Part shown: one piece after another, positions 16,088 through 32,438 of the stretch | Numbering within the stretch: position 1 is the first letter of the stretch | How the letters are laid out: the number at the start of each line of letters is the position of its first letter | DNA from: a virus | Virus record (IMG/VR): IMGVR_UViG_3300049484_000146 | Coordinates: 1 to 37,417 of that record | DNA length: 37,417 nucleotides | Direction: 5' to 3' (one strand) | Made by a program: the position numbers and the translations under genes | The notes under the pieces: generated by a model | What the model was told of the DNA's origin: nothing | What the model saw: the letters and a program-made list of their open reading frames with translations, nothing else | Database searches by the model: none

Positions 16088-16540
16088 TTAATCGGGTTGA
16101 TCTATCGACATCAGCACGTTCATGTGGAAATGGAACGTGGTGGCAGTCGCAGTCGGAGCTGCCGTAACCGCAATGTCGATGGTATCGTTTACCGTGTATT
16201 GGTAGCCAACTCCCGCCGCGGTGGTGGTGGATACACTCGGGAAATGGATGTTACCCCCGGCCTGCCCGACAGTCGATGCGGTAATGAACCGGGCCGGCGT
16301 GGTCCCGTCACCGACACTTAGAGTCACCGCCGGGGTGCTGTCAGAATCCAGGTCGGTGCTGTACAAGTCGATTTGCAGGATACGCGCCCCAATCGGGACT
16401 TTTACCATCTGGATGACATCATTGATTATCAATGAACTGCCGGTAGCGATGTAATACCCGTAAGCATTAAACACCCCAGGAGACACCGCCCTCGGGGTAT
16501 CCCCCTGAGTTACCTGAGTTGATTTATAGGTGGTCGCCAT
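16088..16540 (-). CDS. Virion protein of a tandem pair, copy 2 (capsid-associated)
   Basis: This 150-residue protein is a close paralog of the next gene upstream (16609-17061). Both begin MATTYKSTQVTQGD, share VINDVIQMVKVPIGAR, ASTVGQAGG, AAGVGYQYTVNDTIDI and end in SIDQPD. It is beta-rich with no signal peptide. It follows the coat protein gene, the place of decoration or head-stabilising proteins, and that role is inferred. GGGGGTAAGAGATA precedes the ATG. Confidence 0.7.
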   Translation of the reverse strand: MATTYKSTQVTQGDTPRAVSPGVFNAYGYYIATGSSLIINDVIQMVKVPIGARILQIDLYSTDLDSDSTPAVTLSVGDGTTPARFITASTVGQAGGNIHFPSVSTTTAAGVGYQYTVNDTIDIAVTAAPTATATTFHFHMNVLMSIDQPD

Positions 16541-16567
16541 TATCTCTTACCCCCGTTAATGGGACAT

Positions 16568-16598
16568 GGGGAAGGAGGGGGTTGTCCTCCCCCTCCCC
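16568..16598 (-). terminator. G/C-rich hairpin region between the paired 150-residue genes
   Basis: A G-run arm (16568-16581) and a C-run arm (16585-16598) face each other around TTGT; GGAGG and CCTCC pair perfectly and the remaining pairing is imperfect. It could attenuate or process the transcript so that the first copy is made in excess. No T tract follows. Confidence 0.35.
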
Positions 16599-16608
16599 TG
16601 GTTTATTG

Positions 16609-17061
16609 TTAATCCGGCTGATCAATGCTGAACAGCACATTCATCTTGAACGAGAACGTGGTAGCCGTAGTCTGCGGTGCCGCCACTACCAGGATGTCAA
16701 TGGTGTCGTTCACCGTATACTGATAACCGACACCTGCCGCCGTAGTAGCAGAATCGCTGGGGAAGCGGATGTAACCACCCGCCTGACCCACCGTCGAGGC
16801 AGTGATGAACCGAGCCGTGGTGGAGCCGTCCCCAATCGCCAAAGTGACCGCCGGGGTTGCCCCGCTGTCCAGGTCAGTCGTGTACAAGTCAATGGACAGG
16901 ACTCTGGCCCCGATGGGAACCTTGACCATCTGGATCACGTCGTTGATGACGAGAAGCGACCCGGTGATGGTGTAATGCCCATACGAATTGTACACACCTG
17001 GAGTTACAGCACGGGGGACATCGCCCTGAGTAACCTGAGTGCTTTTATAAGTGGTAGCCAT
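16609..17061 (-). CDS. Virion protein of a tandem pair, copy 1 (capsid-associated)
   Basis: This 150-residue protein immediately follows the coat protein gene. It is about two-thirds identical by eye to the next gene (16088-16540), differing in surface positions such as GYY/GHY and PTATATTFHF/PQTTATTFSF. Beta-rich composition and position suggest a head decoration or capsid-cementing protein. GAGGGGGC lies about nine bases before the ATG. Confidence 0.7.
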   Translation of the reverse strand: MATTYKSTQVTQGDVPRAVTPGVYNSYGHYTITGSLLVINDVIQMVKVPIGARVLSIDLYTTDLDSGATPAVTLAIGDGSTTARFITASTVGQAGGYIRFPSDSATTAAGVGYQYTVNDTIDILVVAAPQTTATTFSFKMNVLFSIDQPD

Positions 17062-18301: not shown

Positions 18302-18616
18302 TTATACCTCGTGGAAATAGGACACATGCAACGCCGCATTCGTGCCTTCCGACCTGATAAACGTCAAATCCCGGAAAGACTTGTCATCCATGACAATAGT
18401 TTGGCCTGCTTCCATTGGTGTTCCCACTGAACTGCTCACCGTAGTGCCACTATAGCATGAATACCTCATATCGTAACTCTCAAGGGTCAAAATAACCTGT
18501 TTAGCCATTTGGCCGGCAAATCTCCCTGTGGTGGGAGTCACCTTGGCCGCAGTCAAACCCTTGATGCCGGTGGTTACCGCGATCACTTCGTAACTTGAAC
18601 AAACCAGATTAGCCAT
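18302..18616 (-). CDS. Virion protein of a second tandem pair, copy 2
   Basis: This 104-residue protein is a paralog of 18620-18931: both share TGRFAGQMAK, a -RDLTF- motif and the end H-x-YFHEV. The pair lies between scaffold and coat protein. It is beta-rich without signal peptide. It may be a head decoration or assembly protein. The GAGGTATAA that ends the upstream copy also provides its ribosome binding site. Confidence 0.65.
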   Translation of the reverse strand: MANLVCSSYEVIAVTTGIKGLTAAKVTPTTGRFAGQMAKQVILTLESYDMRYSCYSGTTVSSSVGTPMEAGQTIVMDDKSFRDLTFIRSEGTNAALHVSYFHEV

Positions 18617-18619
18617 GCC

Positions 18620-18931
18620 TTATACCTCGTGGAAATAATGAACGTGTATTGTGCCGTCAGCCGCCACTGTATGGAAAGTTAAATCTCTGAACGCTTGATC
18701 TGTGAGTGTCAGCATATCGCCAATCGCCAGGGGGACTCCAACTGTGTCGGATGGTGCCGTTGATTTATCAAACGAGTACCTGACCGCGGCTGTTTCCAAG
18801 ACTATAGTCACCGTCTTTGCCATCTGGCCAGCGAATCTACCCGTGGCAGGGGTCAACCGGATTGCCGTCAGGGGGACCGGCGTCCCGGATATGGTCAAAG
18901 CCTCGTAATATGTACAAACCAGATCAGCCAT
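18620..18931 (-). CDS. Virion protein of a second tandem pair, copy 1
   Basis: This 103-residue protein begins MADLVCTYYEAL. The second of two adjacent ATGs is chosen because GGGAGGT is six bases away. It shares TGRFAGQMAK, FRDLTF and HVHYFHEV with the next gene. It follows the scaffold gene directly. The function is inferred from position only. Confidence 0.65.
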   Translation of the reverse strand: MADLVCTYYEALTISGTPVPLTAIRLTPATGRFAGQMAKTVTIVLETAAVRYSFDKSTAPSDTVGVPLAIGDMLTLTDQAFRDLTFHTVAADGTIHVHYFHEV

Positions 18932-18934
18932 CAT

Positions 18935-19825
18935 TTACCTCCCGTGCAGCTTGGCCCACTTTTTCCCCTTGGTGTATTTTGCAAAATCCTCGTCATTCAT
19001 TGCCAGGAGGGTTTCCGTAGTTATTTCACCTTCTGGTGCCCCGCCGGCCTTGCTCAATGAGGTAGCCGCTTGCTGCCCCTTACGGACTGACTCCAAGGTG
19101 CTTTCCTTTTCCGCAACTGGTTTTGTCCCGGAATACCCGCGGCTCCGGGCTAAGTTATAAAACACCTCCCCGGGGGATTTACCCTGCTGCAAAGCCCAGT
19201 AACCCACCTCGATCTCGTCCTGCTCCAATCTGGTGCGAATCTCGTTCTGGTCAGTGACCCCCATAACCTCAAGTTCTTTCAGGCGCGCCTCGATCAGATA
19301 CTTCGCGGCATCGTTATAGTCAGGGGTAACTTCGGCAAACTGGTTAATACCCTGTTTGATGGTTTGCCTCACCTGTTCCAACTGTTTCACTTGGGACGAC
19401 TGTTTTTCTTCTTCGGCTCGCTTTTCCGCTACAGCTCGCCTCTCTGCCAATAGTTGGTCATTCTGCCACTTCAGGTATGCCGCCGGGTCTTCTTCATACA
19501 CCGGCTGGGGTGGTTCCTGGGGCTTTTCGGCCTCTTGAATTTTCTGTAATATCGCGTCCAGACGTTCTCTGAGGATACGATTTTGCGCCGCATCCTGGTT
19601 GACACGGGCCTCAAGCGCCTGACGCTTTTTCCGTTCTTCTAACAGTTCCGGGAGAGGAACGTGTTTAACCGGCACCTTCTCCGGTTCAACCGCGGCAGCC
19701 TCTGGCTCGACGGCCCCATCCCCTTTGCCTAATTCTTCATCGGTAGGAGATAGATCATCAACCTCTATCGGTGCTAATTCAGGTTCTCCCTGACTTTCCG
19801 GCGTTACCACCGCTTCTTCTGGCAT
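18935..19825 (-). CDS. Scaffold protein
   Basis: This 296-residue protein is strongly acidic at the N-terminus (ESQGEPELAPIEVDDLSPTDEE), then has a long charged coiled-coil region (LEERKKRQALEARVNQDAAQ, EEEKQSSQVKQLEQVRQTI) and a short basic C-terminus (AKYTKGKKWAKLHGR). This is the standard composition of internal scaffolds, whose basic tail binds the coat protein. It lies upstream of the coat gene, as expected. AGGAAGGTAATTT precedes the ATG. Confidence 0.8.
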   Translation of the reverse strand: MPEEAVVTPESQGEPELAPIEVDDLSPTDEELGKGDGAVEPEAAAVEPEKVPVKHVPLPELLEERKKRQALEARVNQDAAQNRILRERLDAILQKIQEAEKPQEPPQPVYEEDPAAYLKWQNDQLLAERRAVAEKRAEEEKQSSQVKQLEQVRQTIKQGINQFAEVTPDYNDAAKYLIEARLKELEVMGVTDQNEIRTRLEQDEIEVGYWALQQGKSPGEVFYNLARSRGYSGTKPVAEKESTLESVRKGQQAATSLSKAGGAPEGEITTETLLAMNDEDFAKYTKGKKWAKLHGR

Positions 19826-19828
19826 AAA

Positions 19829-20248
19829 TTACCTTCCTTTATATTTTTTATTTGCCTCGTAAGCACATTCTCTATGACGAGCACCTCTGTTATAAATATA
19901 TAGATTATCTGGACTATCATAAGTGTGACAGTAATAACATTTTCTCCAATCCCAATGTCCACTGTGTTCAAATGCTTTTAATCTATGATGAAATTGTCTA
20001 TGCATAGCATATGTTTTAAACAATATTAAATTACCAATATTATTATTTGTTTTATCTCCATCAATATGATGGACAGATTCACTTTTTAATATGGGTCTCC
20101 CCAATGACTTTTCCATAACAACAATATGTTTATACATATATCCATCTATACTGCGTATGTTTTCTGGATTTAAAATCCTAATATATCCAAGACTATGTGT
20201 GTTTTCCCCACCTTTCCAGCGAGGATGATCTTCGCCACTACACCTCAT
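19829..20248 (-). CDS. HNH homing-type endonuclease, free-standing
   Basis: This 139-residue protein begins DHPRWKGG (the NUMOD-like/HNH start WKGG) and has GRPILKSESVHHIDGDKTNNNIGNL, the His-His and Asn of the HNH site (VHHIDGDKTNNN), then CYYCHTYD and a late Cys that may hold a structural zinc. The gene is visibly AT-rich compared with its neighbours, a usual sign of recent entry. It sits between the scaffold and the ART-like gene without breaking either. A paralog with the same layout is at 28831-29304. Such enzymes cut DNA at a site absent from genomes that carry them. Confidence 0.85.
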   Translation of the reverse strand: MRCSGEDHPRWKGGENTHSLGYIRILNPENIRSIDGYMYKHIVVMEKSLGRPILKSESVHHIDGDKTNNNIGNLILFKTYAMHRQFHHRLKAFEHSGHWDWRKCYYCHTYDSPDNLYIYNRGARHRECAYEANKKYKGR

Positions 20249-28446: not shown

Positions 28447-28677
28447 TTATTTAAGTTTATCCAGGTTTTTAAGGGCTTTTAGCGCGGCTTGGGTTTCCAT
28501 GAACCCCACTTTATCCCGGCGGGTCTTGTTGACCTCGATGAGCAGGAGAAGCAAGCGGCGGTACTCGCCCGGGTCGCGGTTGGGTATGTGTGCCTCGGGG
28601 TCGGCGTAGCGGCAGCACCCCAGGCGGGAGATGAACTCGGCAATAGCTGTTTCGCCGTAGTTGCTATTGTGGGGCAT
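28447..28677 (-). CDS. Small hypothetical protein
   Basis: This 76-residue protein has a Cys pair (GCC), several charged residues and a helical second half (YRRLLLLLIEVNKTRRDKV). The ATG at 28677 follows GGGAGGTTGAGG. Its start overlaps the end of the Cys-rich 56-residue gene upstream by 14 bases. No family is recognised. It is the last gene of the leftward early operon. Confidence 0.55.
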   Translation of the reverse strand: MPHNSNYGETAIAEFISRLGCCRYADPEAHIPNRDPGEYRRLLLLLIEVNKTRRDKVGFMETQAALKALKNLDKLK

Positions 28678-28834
28678 CCTCAACCTCCCTGGTGACCTTG
28701 GGAATTCTCAGCCACCCGACTACGGGGTCTGGCGTGAGTTCGTGGCGGTGGCGCATGCAGGTTAAAACTGGTTTGCCGTTGACGAAGCAGAGCAGGACAG
28801 GGGCGCGACTACGGCATTTATGGCAGAGTTTCAT
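28664..28834 (-). CDS. Small zinc-binding-type protein
   Basis: This 56-residue protein begins MKLCHKCRSRAPVLLCF and contains two more potential metal ligands in TCMRHRHEL, so a single C-x2-C...C...H zinc knuckle is plausible. The ATG overlaps the TGA of the preceding gene (ATGA). The ribosome binding site GAGGAG is the end of the displaced rusA tail, so the pair was probably already coupled to rusA before the HNH gene entered. Confidence 0.6.
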   Translation of the reverse strand: MKLCHKCRSRAPVLLCFVNGKPVLTCMRHRHELTPDPVVGWLRIPKVTREVEDAPQ

Positions 28835-28890
28835 GGCATCTCCTCTATGGTTATCTCCACCCGGGGGTCCGGGTCTTTGCCGATGATGCG
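28831..28890 (-). pseudogene. Displaced 3' end of rusA fused to the HNH gene
   Basis: The last 19 residues of the HNH reading frame, with the motif R-I-x-G-x-D and then PRVEI-T-I, align with the end of the RusA protein encoded upstream (R-I-x-G-x-D and PRVEI-S-I). The stretch is GC-rich like the rest of the phage, unlike the AT-rich HNH body. It looks like the original rusA tail left behind when the endonuclease gene entered. Confidence 0.6.
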
Positions 28891-29304
28891 TTTATTTCTC
28901 CGATACTGGTTATAACAGACATTGTGATAGTAACCTCTGCCGTGACGTGTCATATTCTTGGTGTCGTCATACGAATGGCAATAACTACACTGTCTCCAAT
29001 CATAATGCCCGCACTTATTATATGCAGTTAATCTGCGATGAAAACCAGAGTGCATCGCATGATTAGCAAATACCATAAGATTGTATATTGAATTGTTTTT
29101 CTTATCGCCATCAATGTGGTGTATCCTCTCTGACTGTGATATTCCCCTTCCAAATGCTTTTTCTACAACCAATACCGATTCCAATACGCATCCTTGATGG
29201 TCTGCTCTTGGATGACTCGGCATCCAATGTCTTATATAACCATTAATATCAACTTTTATTCCACCTTTCCAATTATGGTGTTTTGACCCTTTTAATCCTT
29301 TCAT
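28831..29304 (-). CDS. HNH homing-type endonuclease with a fused rusA tail
   Basis: This 157-residue protein begins KGLKGSKHHNWKGGIKVDINGY and has GRGISQSERIHHIDGDKKNNSIYNL with the HNH active site HHIDGDKKNN, then CSYCHSYDD and a late Cys for structural zinc. The layout matches the HNH protein at 19829-20248. AT-rich codons are used up to about residue 138; the last 19 residues switch to GC-rich codons and resemble the end of RusA. It sits directly downstream of rusA and was probably inserted into that gene. Confidence 0.85.
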   Translation of the reverse strand: MKGLKGSKHHNWKGGIKVDINGYIRHWMPSHPRADHQGCVLESVLVVEKAFGRGISQSERIHHIDGDKKNNSIYNLMVFANHAMHSGFHRRLTAYNKCGHYDWRQCSYCHSYDDTKNMTRHGRGYYHNVCYNQYRRNKRIIGKDPDPRVEITIEEMP

Positions 29305-29676
29305 TTAATTCTCCTGATATTCAGTTATAGATATTTCAACTCTTGGATTTATTTTATCCATACCTGCTATCCTGCTTCCATCTACTGATTTTACCAACCT
29401 ATCATTTTCAATGAAACCAAAGGCTTCTAATAAATCATGGGTAGCTGCTAATAGGTTAGTAAGATCGGGTAAACGTGCAGTTGCCATATAGTATGTGCAT
29501 TTCACATGAACAGGGCCAAGCACCATTTTATATAGCATCCCTTTTATTTGTGAGGCCCATTCTTTTGAATAGGTTCTAAACGCCTTGCTCTGGATAATGC
29601 AGGGACGTTTACCGGCCATGATTATCTGCTGGCTGTTCTTTTTGGTGATGGGTTGGCCGTAGATGGTTAGTCTCAT
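29305..29676 (-). CDS. rusA: RusA-type Holliday junction resolvase
   Basis: This 123-residue protein has LTIYGQPITKKNSQQI at the start, then RLPDLTNLLAATHDLLEAFGFIENDRLVKSVDGSRI, with the D-x-x-N and the ND pair that bind metal, and PRVEISI at the end. RusA dimers cut Holliday junctions; in phages they clear branches before packaging. The ATG overlaps the previous TGA (TGATG). The second half of the gene is AT-rich and the first part GC-rich, so the 3' part seems to have come with the downstream HNH gene. Confidence 0.85.
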   Translation of the reverse strand: MRLTIYGQPITKKNSQQIIMAGKRPCIIQSKAFRTYSKEWASQIKGMLYKMVLGPVHVKCTYYMATARLPDLTNLLAATHDLLEAFGFIENDRLVKSVDGSRIAGMDKINPRVEISITEYQEN

Positions 29677-29894
29677 CAATCCTCCCCGCCTATCCCTGTA
29701 TCAAGCTGCGCCACAGCTTTGATTAGCTGGCGCTCGGGCGGGTCATTTAGCGGGGTGTCTCGGAGGGATTGCTGCCAAAACGGGCAGGTGTCCAGCCAAT
29801 CCCGGTAATCCTCGTTGCTGTAGCACCAGCCGGAGCCGCGCTCGTCGTCTGCGAAACCCGTGCTGAGCCAAATGCAATTTTCACAGGTTTTCAT
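29676..29894 (-). CDS. Small Cys-rich protein, probable zinc binding
   Basis: This 72-residue protein has CENCIW at residues 4-9, then C24 and C37 (GSGWCYSNEDYRDWLDTCPFW), a four-Cys set that could hold one zinc. The rest is charged. GGGGGGCAGCG precedes the ATG, which overlaps the upstream stop by 14 bases. Similar short Cys proteins appear in phage replication operons without known function. Confidence 0.65.
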   Translation of the reverse strand: MKTCENCIWLSTGFADDERGSGWCYSNEDYRDWLDTCPFWQQSLRDTPLNDPPERQLIKAVAQLDTGIGGED

Positions 29895-30081: not shown

Positions 30082-30140
30082 TTCTCCTCCGTGTTGACTC
30101 CCGCCGCCGCCAGCCGCCGGGTTACCGGGTGGGTGGTCAT
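30078..30140 (-). CDS. 20-residue coupled micro-ORF
   Basis: The ATG overlaps the stop of the nuclease gene (ATGA) and the TGA overlaps the next ATG (ATGA). The encoded peptide is MTTHPVTRRLAAAGVNTEEK. Perfect double coupling and the GGAGGAG of the next gene at its own end suggest that ribosomes run through it. It may be only a coupling device. Confidence 0.3.
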   Translation of the reverse strand: MTTHPVTRRLAAAGVNTEEK

Positions 30141-30769
30141 GGGGTTTCTCCATGTTCAAACCGGGCTTTCCTAGCCTTCTTGTACGCATCAAATAATCCA
30201 CCATTTAATGGCATATATTTATCAGTCATTAAGTCTCCTTTATGAAAGTAAACCAAATCAGGTATTCCTTGAGTGTTCCTATCTATTACATCGCAATAAA
30301 TACAATAATAAGAATTTTCTCCATGTCGGGAGCCACTAAATCTATCAATAATTATACGGCCGCATTGTAGGCATCGCATAAAACAAGTTTCTTCTTCTTT
30401 ATTTAAAGTTGGCTCATTATCACGATATGATTTCCATATCCTATAAAAATCATATTCTTTCTTATAGTCTTCATCAATACCATGAATATATGGGTTACCA
30501 ACAATTATATATAGTTTATTGGTTGCCAATGAAAATTCTTTTAACTTATCAAATTCTTTTCCAGTTGGGATAATTGCTTTTATTTCAATAAACTTTCCAA
30601 ATTCAGGCAAATAAAAGTCAGGCAAATAAAATTCTTTATCCATTCCATATCCCTCAGGTTCATACTCCCACTCTATTCCCAATGCATCAAAAAATACTGC
30701 CCAGCGTGCCTCCAGCCTCGACCTCATCCGATAACCCTTGTACATGGTCTCAATCGGCTTAATATCCAT
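30137..30769 (-). CDS. PD-(D/E)XK-type nuclease with zinc-finger part, mosaic composition
   Basis: This 210-residue protein begins MDIKPIETMYKGYRMRSRLEARWAVFFDALGIEWEYEPEG and has the acid motif YLPDFYLPEFGKFIEIKA, where D...E-x-K is the PD-(D/E)XK active site. Two CxxC pairs (CLQC and CIYC, about residues 131 and 152) make a likely zinc site. The C-terminus KARKARFEHGETP is typical of such phage nucleases. The middle, about 30190-30650, is AT-rich while both ends are GC-rich, so the gene looks recombined. GGGGGATAC precedes the ATG; it overlaps the primase-helicase stop by 11 bases. Confidence 0.7.
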   Translation of the reverse strand: MDIKPIETMYKGYRMRSRLEARWAVFFDALGIEWEYEPEGYGMDKEFYLPDFYLPEFGKFIEIKAIIPTGKEFDKLKEFSLATNKLYIIVGNPYIHGIDEDYKKEYDFYRIWKSYRDNEPTLNKEEETCFMRCLQCGRIIIDRFSGSRHGENSYYCIYCDVIDRNTQGIPDLVYFHKGDLMTDKYMPLNGGLFDAYKKARKARFEHGETP

Positions 30770-32438
30770 GTATCCCCCTGTCATATTCGGTAAACTTGCT
30801 AAACTCTCCCTTAAAGTACAACATCGTGTCGCCGCCGGCGGTGTATCGTGACGCGTCCACTCGGACTAAAGTTTTGGGTTCAAAACTTGATTCCTGCGCT
30901 CCAGGGTTGCTCATATTTGACTTGGTTTTCTTGCGCCACAGAATTACCACCTGATCGCTGTCAGCCCCAATGCTTGAACTGTCCTTGAGGTCGTTCATGG
31001 TCATTATCGTGCCATCCTCTACCTTCCGTGGTTGGGCAATCAGAATCAGGGGTATATGTAATTCTTCGGCCAACATTTTAAATCCCCGCGTCACGTTTCC
31101 CACCTCTGCCGACACATGGGCCAAAGATCGGATGAGAAAATGAAGGTTGTCAAAAATAACCAACTTTAATCCGTACCGGCGCACCGCCGCCCGTATCGTC
31201 TTAAATACTGTCTCGGTAGTGATATTCTTGTAGTTGTAGCCAAAATATAATGGGATATCCATGATGGTTTCGGCCACATTCAGGGCAGCATCTCGGGTGA
31301 AACTCTCTTTAGATATGAACCCCTCGGCTTCGATAACCTTTTTGGCTAATCGTTCCGGGCGCATCTCCAGGCAATAGACCAGGGCCGGATACCCACGCTT
31401 GGCATTGTAGGTGGCAATGTTCAAGGCCATAGTTGACTTTCCTGTCTTGGGAACAGCGGACAAGGTTATAAGGTCTCCTCCCTCAATGGCCCCTAAGAGC
31501 TTATCTACGTTACGCCAAGGGGTTCTTATCTCTGAGCTTAAATCCTTTTCGTGTTCAAACAGTTTAAAAACTGACTCGAAGAAGTGGACCACATTGTCAA
31601 TTTTCTTTTGGGTGGCCTGGGTTAAGTCGTAGGTTTCGTTGCAGGTGAAATATTCGTTGGCATCTTTGAACCCTTCCTCCCGGATGAAATAGCACCGTTC
31701 CAACCCGAGCCGTGGGGCAAGTTCATCGCTGGCAATGTTCCCCTTTTCATCGTTGTCGTACCAGAGATATATTTTGTCCAGATGGTCAAGTTGGTCTATC
31801 CATTCCGGGGCGAAGCTGGCGCATCCGGTTGACCCGGAAACCACGTTCTTGATCCCGGCCTGCCAACACATGATGGCATCAAACTCTCCCTCCGTTATCA
31901 AAACTTCGGTGGCGCTTTTGAGACAGTCCTGATTGAACAGGGCAGACTTTGCGTCCTTCACCCGCTTAAATTCCTTGCCCGGTGGCATGGACCGAAACTT
32001 GAAGTTGATCAGTTTACCAGCCTCATAGTATGGGATCGCAATCCACCCACCCTGATTGTCGGCCATGAACCCCAGATTGAAGTGCTGTATAGTCTCCAGT
32101 TTCAAACCCCGCTTGATCAGATAGTCAAATGCAGCCGGGTTGTCGAACAGGTCTTTGTGGTATTTGTCGGCATCGTCGTCGGGTGGCTTTTTGGGTTCCT
32201 TTGTGCCGGCGGCTTTGCGAAATGACACGAGGTTTTCGTTCAACTGGTCATTGAAGTGCCGGCGCAGGGTGGTCTCGTTTCCTTTCTCGTTGCACTTGTG
32301 ACAGAAGTAGACGTTTTTATCGGGGTCAATATAGAGGTGAAACTTTTCATCCTCGCAGAAAGGACAGTTGGTTATGTCCTGACCAGAGGATTGCTTGATC
32401 GGGAATCCTTTGGCTTCCAAATAATCAGCAAGTTTCAT
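30759..32438 (-). CDS. Bifunctional primase-helicase, T7 gp4-like
   Basis: This is a 559-residue protein. Residues 25-49 form the primase zinc ribbon (CPFC then CHKC). The Toprim domain follows with ITEGEFDA (181-188) and WYDNDEKG near 230. The C-terminal DnaB-type helicase has Walker A VPKTGKST (329-336) and Walker B LVIFDNLHF near 430. It unwinds DNA and primes lagging-strand synthesis at the phage fork; no phage DNA polymerase is seen, so the host polymerase is probably recruited. Its ATG overlaps the initiator stop. Confidence 0.92.
   Translation of the reverse strand: MKLADYLEAKGFPIKQSSGQDITNCPFCEDEKFHLYIDPDKNVYFCHKCNEKGNETTLRRHFNDQLNENLVSFRKAAGTKEPKKPPDDDADKYHKDLFDNPAAFDYLIKRGLKLETIQHFNLGFMADNQGGWIAIPYYEAGKLINFKFRSMPPGKEFKRVKDAKSALFNQDCLKSATEVLITEGEFDAIMCWQAGIKNVVSGSTGCASFAPEWIDQLDHLDKIYLWYDNDEKGNIASDELAPRLGLERCYFIREEGFKDANEYFTCNETYDLTQATQKKIDNVVHFFESVFKLFEHEKDLSSEIRTPWRNVDKLLGAIEGGDLITLSAVPKTGKSTMALNIATYNAKRGYPALVYCLEMRPERLAKKVIEAEGFISKESFTRDAALNVAETIMDIPLYFGYNYKNITTETVFKTIRAAVRRYGLKLVIFDNLHFLIRSLAHVSAEVGNVTRGFKMLAEELHIPLILIAQPRKVEDGTIMTMNDLKDSSSIGADSDQVVILWRKKTKSNMSNPGAQESSFEPKTLVRVDASRYTAGGDTMLYFKGEFSKFTEYDRGIHGY

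Follow-up and report, generated by a model that had tools for sequence, protein, structure and literature searches.

A phage rusA gene with a foreign-looking 3' end, followed by an HNH endonuclease gene that probably retains the old one

In the window (the whole stretch of phage DNA analysed, 37,417 nucleotides), a free-standing HNH homing endonuclease cassette has quite probably entered rusA, bringing a divergent replacement 3' end and keeping the old end fused to the endonuclease itself. The cassette would consist of an AT-rich divergent copy of the 3' two-thirds of rusA, the HNH gene and the displaced resident rusA end. Such a layout is otherwise described in fungal mitochondria and, judging from the loci compared, appears here at four places in phage or prophage DNA, the window included.

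Both genes were called as open reading frames on the minus strand. rusA occupies positions 29305-29679, with a TTG start at 29679 or an ATG start at 29676, and the HNH gene occupies positions 28831-29304. The two genes abut, the TAA of rusA being followed directly by the ATG of the HNH gene. The next gene (56 aa, 28664-28834, minus strand) begins with an ATG that overlaps the HNH stop codon (ATGA). A Shine-Dalgarno-like AGGAG lies within the rusA end ahead of the HNH ATG (29311-29315, minus strand). Another, GAGGAG, lies within the HNH tail ahead of the next gene (28840-28845, minus strand). The HNH protein matched Pfam HNH_3 with 30.7 bits (cut-off 24.8). Its body (residues 1-138, 28891-29304, minus strand) has a GC3 of 0.34, a confidently modelled fold and a Cys-rich, zinc-finger-like C-terminal region. 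In an alignment of HNH relatives, the catalytic motif HHIDGDKKNN was intact and His85 was conserved. The RusA protein matched Pfam RusA with 26 bits (cut-off 22.8), and Asp72, Asp82 and Asp93, which are invariant columns, all fall within the AT-rich 3' part of the gene. The RusA model shows an intact fold (pLDDT 93), with E. coli RusA (1q8r) as the best PDB match in Foldseek (E 6.6e-08). By profile, acidic residues and predicted fold, the window protein is a bona fide RusA Holliday junction resolvase. That both RusA and HNH were kept active, as the first-pass annotation held, rests on these intact motifs and models.

Composition changes abruptly within both genes. In rusA, GC3 is 0.73 before and 0.26 after a switch at codon 33 (shuffle p < 0.0005), which divides the gene into a GC-rich 5' part (codons 1-33, 29581-29679, minus strand) and an AT-rich 3' part (codons 34-124 and the stop codon, 29305-29580, minus strand). 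In the HNH gene, the switch is upward, from a GC3 of 0.34 to one of 0.79, and lies at codon 138 (p 0.0045), exactly at the first codon of the C-terminal tail (RIIGKDPDPRVEITIEEMP and the stop codon, 28831-28890, minus strand). The present rusA tail has a GC3 of 0.18, against 0.79 for the HNH tail, and most neighbouring phage genes lie at 0.6-0.73. These switches make the opening third of rusA and the HNH tail appear resident, and the DNA lying between the two appear foreign. The new rusA end continues the reading frame of the host gene, and we infer its foreign origin from composition. General codon differences of AT-rich HNH genes could account for part of the pattern, but not for the drop within host genes. 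The first-pass annotation had expected a composition scan to reveal such switch points and had proposed that an endonuclease gene arrived with a foreign rusA 3' part, leaving the old end as its own C-terminus. The switch points were found as claimed, and together with the tail identity and the tailless HNH homologues they fit this history.

The last 19 HNH residues are homologous to the RusA C-terminus. When aligned, RIIGKDP-DPRVEITIEE of HNH pairs with RIAGMDKINPRVEISITE of RusA (29320-29373, minus strand; alignment and model) with a BLOSUM62 score of 42, a value reached by 0.35% of whole-protein shuffles. Unrelated neighbouring frames, taken as a control, scored 43-46, so that the pair score alone is not decisive. 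For this reason, 32 RusA tails taken from other loci were made into a profile, with the window RusA left out. Among about 26,700 frames, the window HNH was the best non-RusA match to this profile (E 0.015; the next, 1.4), and it scored above 20,000 of 20,000 shuffles of itself. It was also the only one matched among about 200 HNH frames. The RusA ends of two loci with no HNH gene behind rusA, L123 and L124, read RIMGKDAEQPRVEIWIE and RIMGKDKDNPRVEIELIE (RIMGKD..PRVEI), which makes the HNH tail typical of RusA but for one residue. Counting against the cassette reading, the HNH tail is one residue shorter than all RI.G.D-type RusA tails seen. Chance or convergence is a scarcely credible source of the likeness, even with some unrelated neighbouring frames equalling the pair score: the independent profile and the 20,000 shuffles speak against it, the tail starts exactly at the GC3 switch, the two stretches share the same register at the C-terminus and the pattern recurs at other loci. 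Although pair scores near 42 do arise by chance, this reading was dropped in the light of the profile and of composition. The alignment of the two ends reported by the first-pass annotation thus holds up against an independent profile and shuffles, and a search of about 200 HNH frames turned up no HNH gene with the same tail and no rusA, which was named there as contrary evidence.

The C-terminus of every HNH in related loci was compared with the C-terminus of the upstream gene. Three unrelated phage or prophage loci share the layout, at a tape-measure gene, a lysis-type gene and a C5-methyltransferase gene. At L164, a prophage tape-measure gene of a Bacillota assembly (genome G131, contig C126), the end of the tape-measure protein and the HNH tail share 29 identical residues; 24 of the 87 bases differ, and the changes, in 22 of the 29 codons, are all synonymous. 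GC3 is 0.38 in the host-gene tail and 0.79 in the HNH tail. Within the 433 codons of the host gene that were covered, composition switches at codon 401, and the duplicated tail starts at codon 403. The lysis-type gene is found on two contigs (L006 and L007, with the ends LKRMQYRGIKLKFAP and LKRMLERGILIPFAPHE), and its GC3 goes from 0.80 to 0.26 at codon 133. At L275, the C5-cytosine methyltransferase has a motif X tail that reads QAGNSVSVPVIFEIAKRMEI in the gene and QAGNSVTVNVIYEIAKQMEV on the HNH. The HNH tail had a higher GC3 than the HNH body in all four cases (not significant for L007) and a higher GC3 than the present host-gene tail, again in four of four. In three of these cases, the HNH gene starts directly after the host stop codon or overlapping it. 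Under a single criterion, 4 of the 118 HNH-downstream pairs showed the pattern, as did 9 of the 2354 pairs formed by other neighbours (Fisher p 0.0025). This count is descriptive, because the criterion was fixed after the cases had been seen and with those loci themselves. Among the nine positives without HNH, several are small paralogues or matches in composition.

Some candidates were rejected. The HNH tandem pairs L172 and L234 are whole-gene paralogues. L003-L026, considered as simple tailed homologues, have no PRVEI ends. The RusA-like frame of L189 is well upstream of its HNH and unrelated to it. A separate observation concerns L132 (1815-3091), where each of two adjacent genes ends in an SSB-like acidic tip (NEDLPF and NEDIPF).

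Three HNH relatives are tailless and end within a few residues of the point where the tail starts: P0003, which is a paralogue in the same phage (19829-20248, minus strand; 45% identical to the first HNH), and two homologues elsewhere (L190 and L191). In the AlphaFold2 model of HNH, residues 20-140 are confident; confidence then falls to 73 and 56, and the tail is a low-confidence region. A tail captured from rusA could have become a functional, selected part of HNH, for DNA recognition or for interaction with RusA. It is kept in frame and still recognisable, and the C-terminal parts of phage HNH proteins vary with the insertion site (PMC12724721). We consider this reading very improbable in view of the three homologues that have no such tail, the low model confidence and the sister cases, in which each tail matches the local host gene and no common domain is seen. 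In the RusA model, the counterpart of the HNH tail overlaps two strands (103-107 and 113-120). Since it forms strands, a rusA gene losing its end would probably lose the fold of its product, and the replacement end would matter.

Two observations concern composition at other places in the window. The second HNH gene (19829-20248) has a GC3 of 0.20 and is followed by a scaffold-like gene (both within 18935-20248), the first 32 codons of which are AT-rich (GC3 0.28, then 0.60; p 0.02). This AT-rich start possibly reflects co-conversion that took in the 5' side of the gene downstream. An AT-rich endonuclease-like frame at 30137-30784 (phrog_21138, with weak endonuclease matches) has 28 GC-rich codons at its start (GC3 0.71, then 0.22; p<0.0005), and the switch falls within a conserved-looking RSRLEARWAVFFDALGIEW stretch. 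The window also holds two tandem paralogous gene pairs, of 150+150 aa and 104+104 aa, at 16088-17061 and 18302-18934.

Relatives lacking the HNH gene were also compared. The RusA proteins of L123 and L124, both viral contigs, are 47-49% identical to the window RusA. The tail of L123 scored 51 against the HNH tail and 45 against the present RusA end, and that of L124 scored 51 and 58. The comparison is mixed, L123 favouring the HNH tail and L124 the present end, and it is confounded by GC content. The first-pass annotation had predicted that the resident tail would lie closer to the HNH end: with these distant relatives, L123 leans towards the prediction and L124 away from it. At L275, two methyltransferase relatives without HNH have the diagnostic TVNV of the HNH tail in place of the SVPV of the present methyltransferase. 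Their overall identity differs little (17/20 with the displaced end, 16/20 with the present end). Identity over 60 bases was 43 against 42, giving no separation; L302 shares a 20-base identical run with the HNH tail of L275. L302 (genome G553, contig C4) is a methyltransferase relative of L275 that no HNH follows; its middle region is different and shorter, and identity is mosaic along the gene. No close relative lacking HNH was found for the window or L164, and no near-identical phage in the phage collection. A primase-helicase query gave no relative in IMG/VR. DNA patterns of the HNH tail gave no match in IMG/VR or GTDB contigs, and the HNH protein P0001 was not found in the records and genomes holding RusA relatives.

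The following sequence of events is proposed. The endonuclease would cut a rusA that lacks the cassette, close to the 3' end of the gene. A genome bearing the cassette would then serve as template for repair, and the AT-rich rusA end would be copied in together with the HNH gene. The left crossover would fall around codon 33, where rusA is conserved, and the right one within the old rusA end or past it. The new 3' end would keep RusA whole. It may also escape cutting because its DNA is divergent; that a changed site resists cutting is a general assumption for homing (PMC12724721). The old end would stay as a passenger tail and right-hand homology arm. It would keep the ribosome-binding site of the next gene (GAGGAG), and the new rusA end would supply AGGAG for the HNH gene. 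Ordinary mosaic recombination between phages, within rusA homology and not driven by the endonuclease, could also have brought in the foreign 3' part and the HNH gene and left the tail as a passive scar. Phages are mosaic, both junctions lie in rusA-related sequence and HNH activity is a prediction from sequence. We consider this origin unlikely: HNH genes show the three-part layout at four host genes unrelated to one another, other gene pairs show it less often, and phage homing endonucleases are known to co-convert flanking DNA (PMC2988022).

If the homing cassette is the correct reading, it shows a way for a homing gene that has no splicing element to enter a coding sequence and leave the gene alive, since the missing end is brought along. 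The signature is a host-gene tail repeated on the endonuclease with the opposite codon composition, and this would allow past invasions, donors and likely target sites to be read from genomes. Immunity to self-cleavage by swapping of the 3' end becomes a directly testable idea. A broader proposal is that certain phage HNH homing endonucleases act in nature as home-and-rescue elements, carrying a divergent, cut-resistant copy of the 3' end of their target. Such a cassette could enter coding sequence with neither intron nor intein, and the displaced end would persist as endonuclease tail and right homology arm; homing genes could then invade essential phage genes repeatedly, each time leaving a readable scar. 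This proposal seems to us about evenly balanced on this analysis.

Several known systems resemble this layout in part. Some prophages and integrative elements rebuild the 3' end of the gene into which they insert, for example phage 21 and e14 at icd. They likewise supply a replacement 3' end and displace the old one, but they use a site-specific integrase and att sites, with no homing endonuclease and no fused tail. In engineered home-and-rescue gene drives, too, an essential gene receives a nuclease cassette along with a sequence-changed copy that restores its function; these drives are artificial, CRISPR-based and used in insects (PMC7968924), and the likeness is an analogy only.

In phages, T4 Mob and Seg genes and the HNH genes of Skunavirus and ICP1 are closer. 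There, an HNH gene likewise lies between phage genes, its start abuts or overlaps the upstream stop codon, the insert is AT-rich and co-conversion of flanks is expected (PMC2988022, PMC12724721, PMC10448857). A duplicated, displaced host-gene end on the endonuclease is not described in the passages covered, and no phage report of one was found in the open-access literature searched. In a known in-gene insertion, mobE of Aeh1 in nrdA, the gene is split instead.

The closest parallel is found in fungal mitochondrial mobile ORFs with foreign C-termini, in Glomus atp6, atp9, cox2 and nad3 and Allomyces atp6 (PMC3630166). There too, an endonuclease ORF lies at the 3' part of a gene, a foreign 3' end makes the gene a hybrid and the native end is displaced downstream. 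As in those genes, the host-gene C-terminus is present twice in the window, flanking the endonuclease ORF. In the published fungal cases, the native end matches relatives better (PMC3630166). The fungal ORFs are mitochondrial and mostly LAGLIDADG or GIY-YIG, whereas those studied here are HNH_3 and at phage or prophage loci (PMC3630166). Here the old end is read in frame as the C-terminus of the endonuclease, unlike in the descriptions of the fungal ORFs (PMC3630166). For fungal atp9 and cox2, the published coordinates abut, so the displaced end may be fused to the endonuclease there too (PMC3630166).
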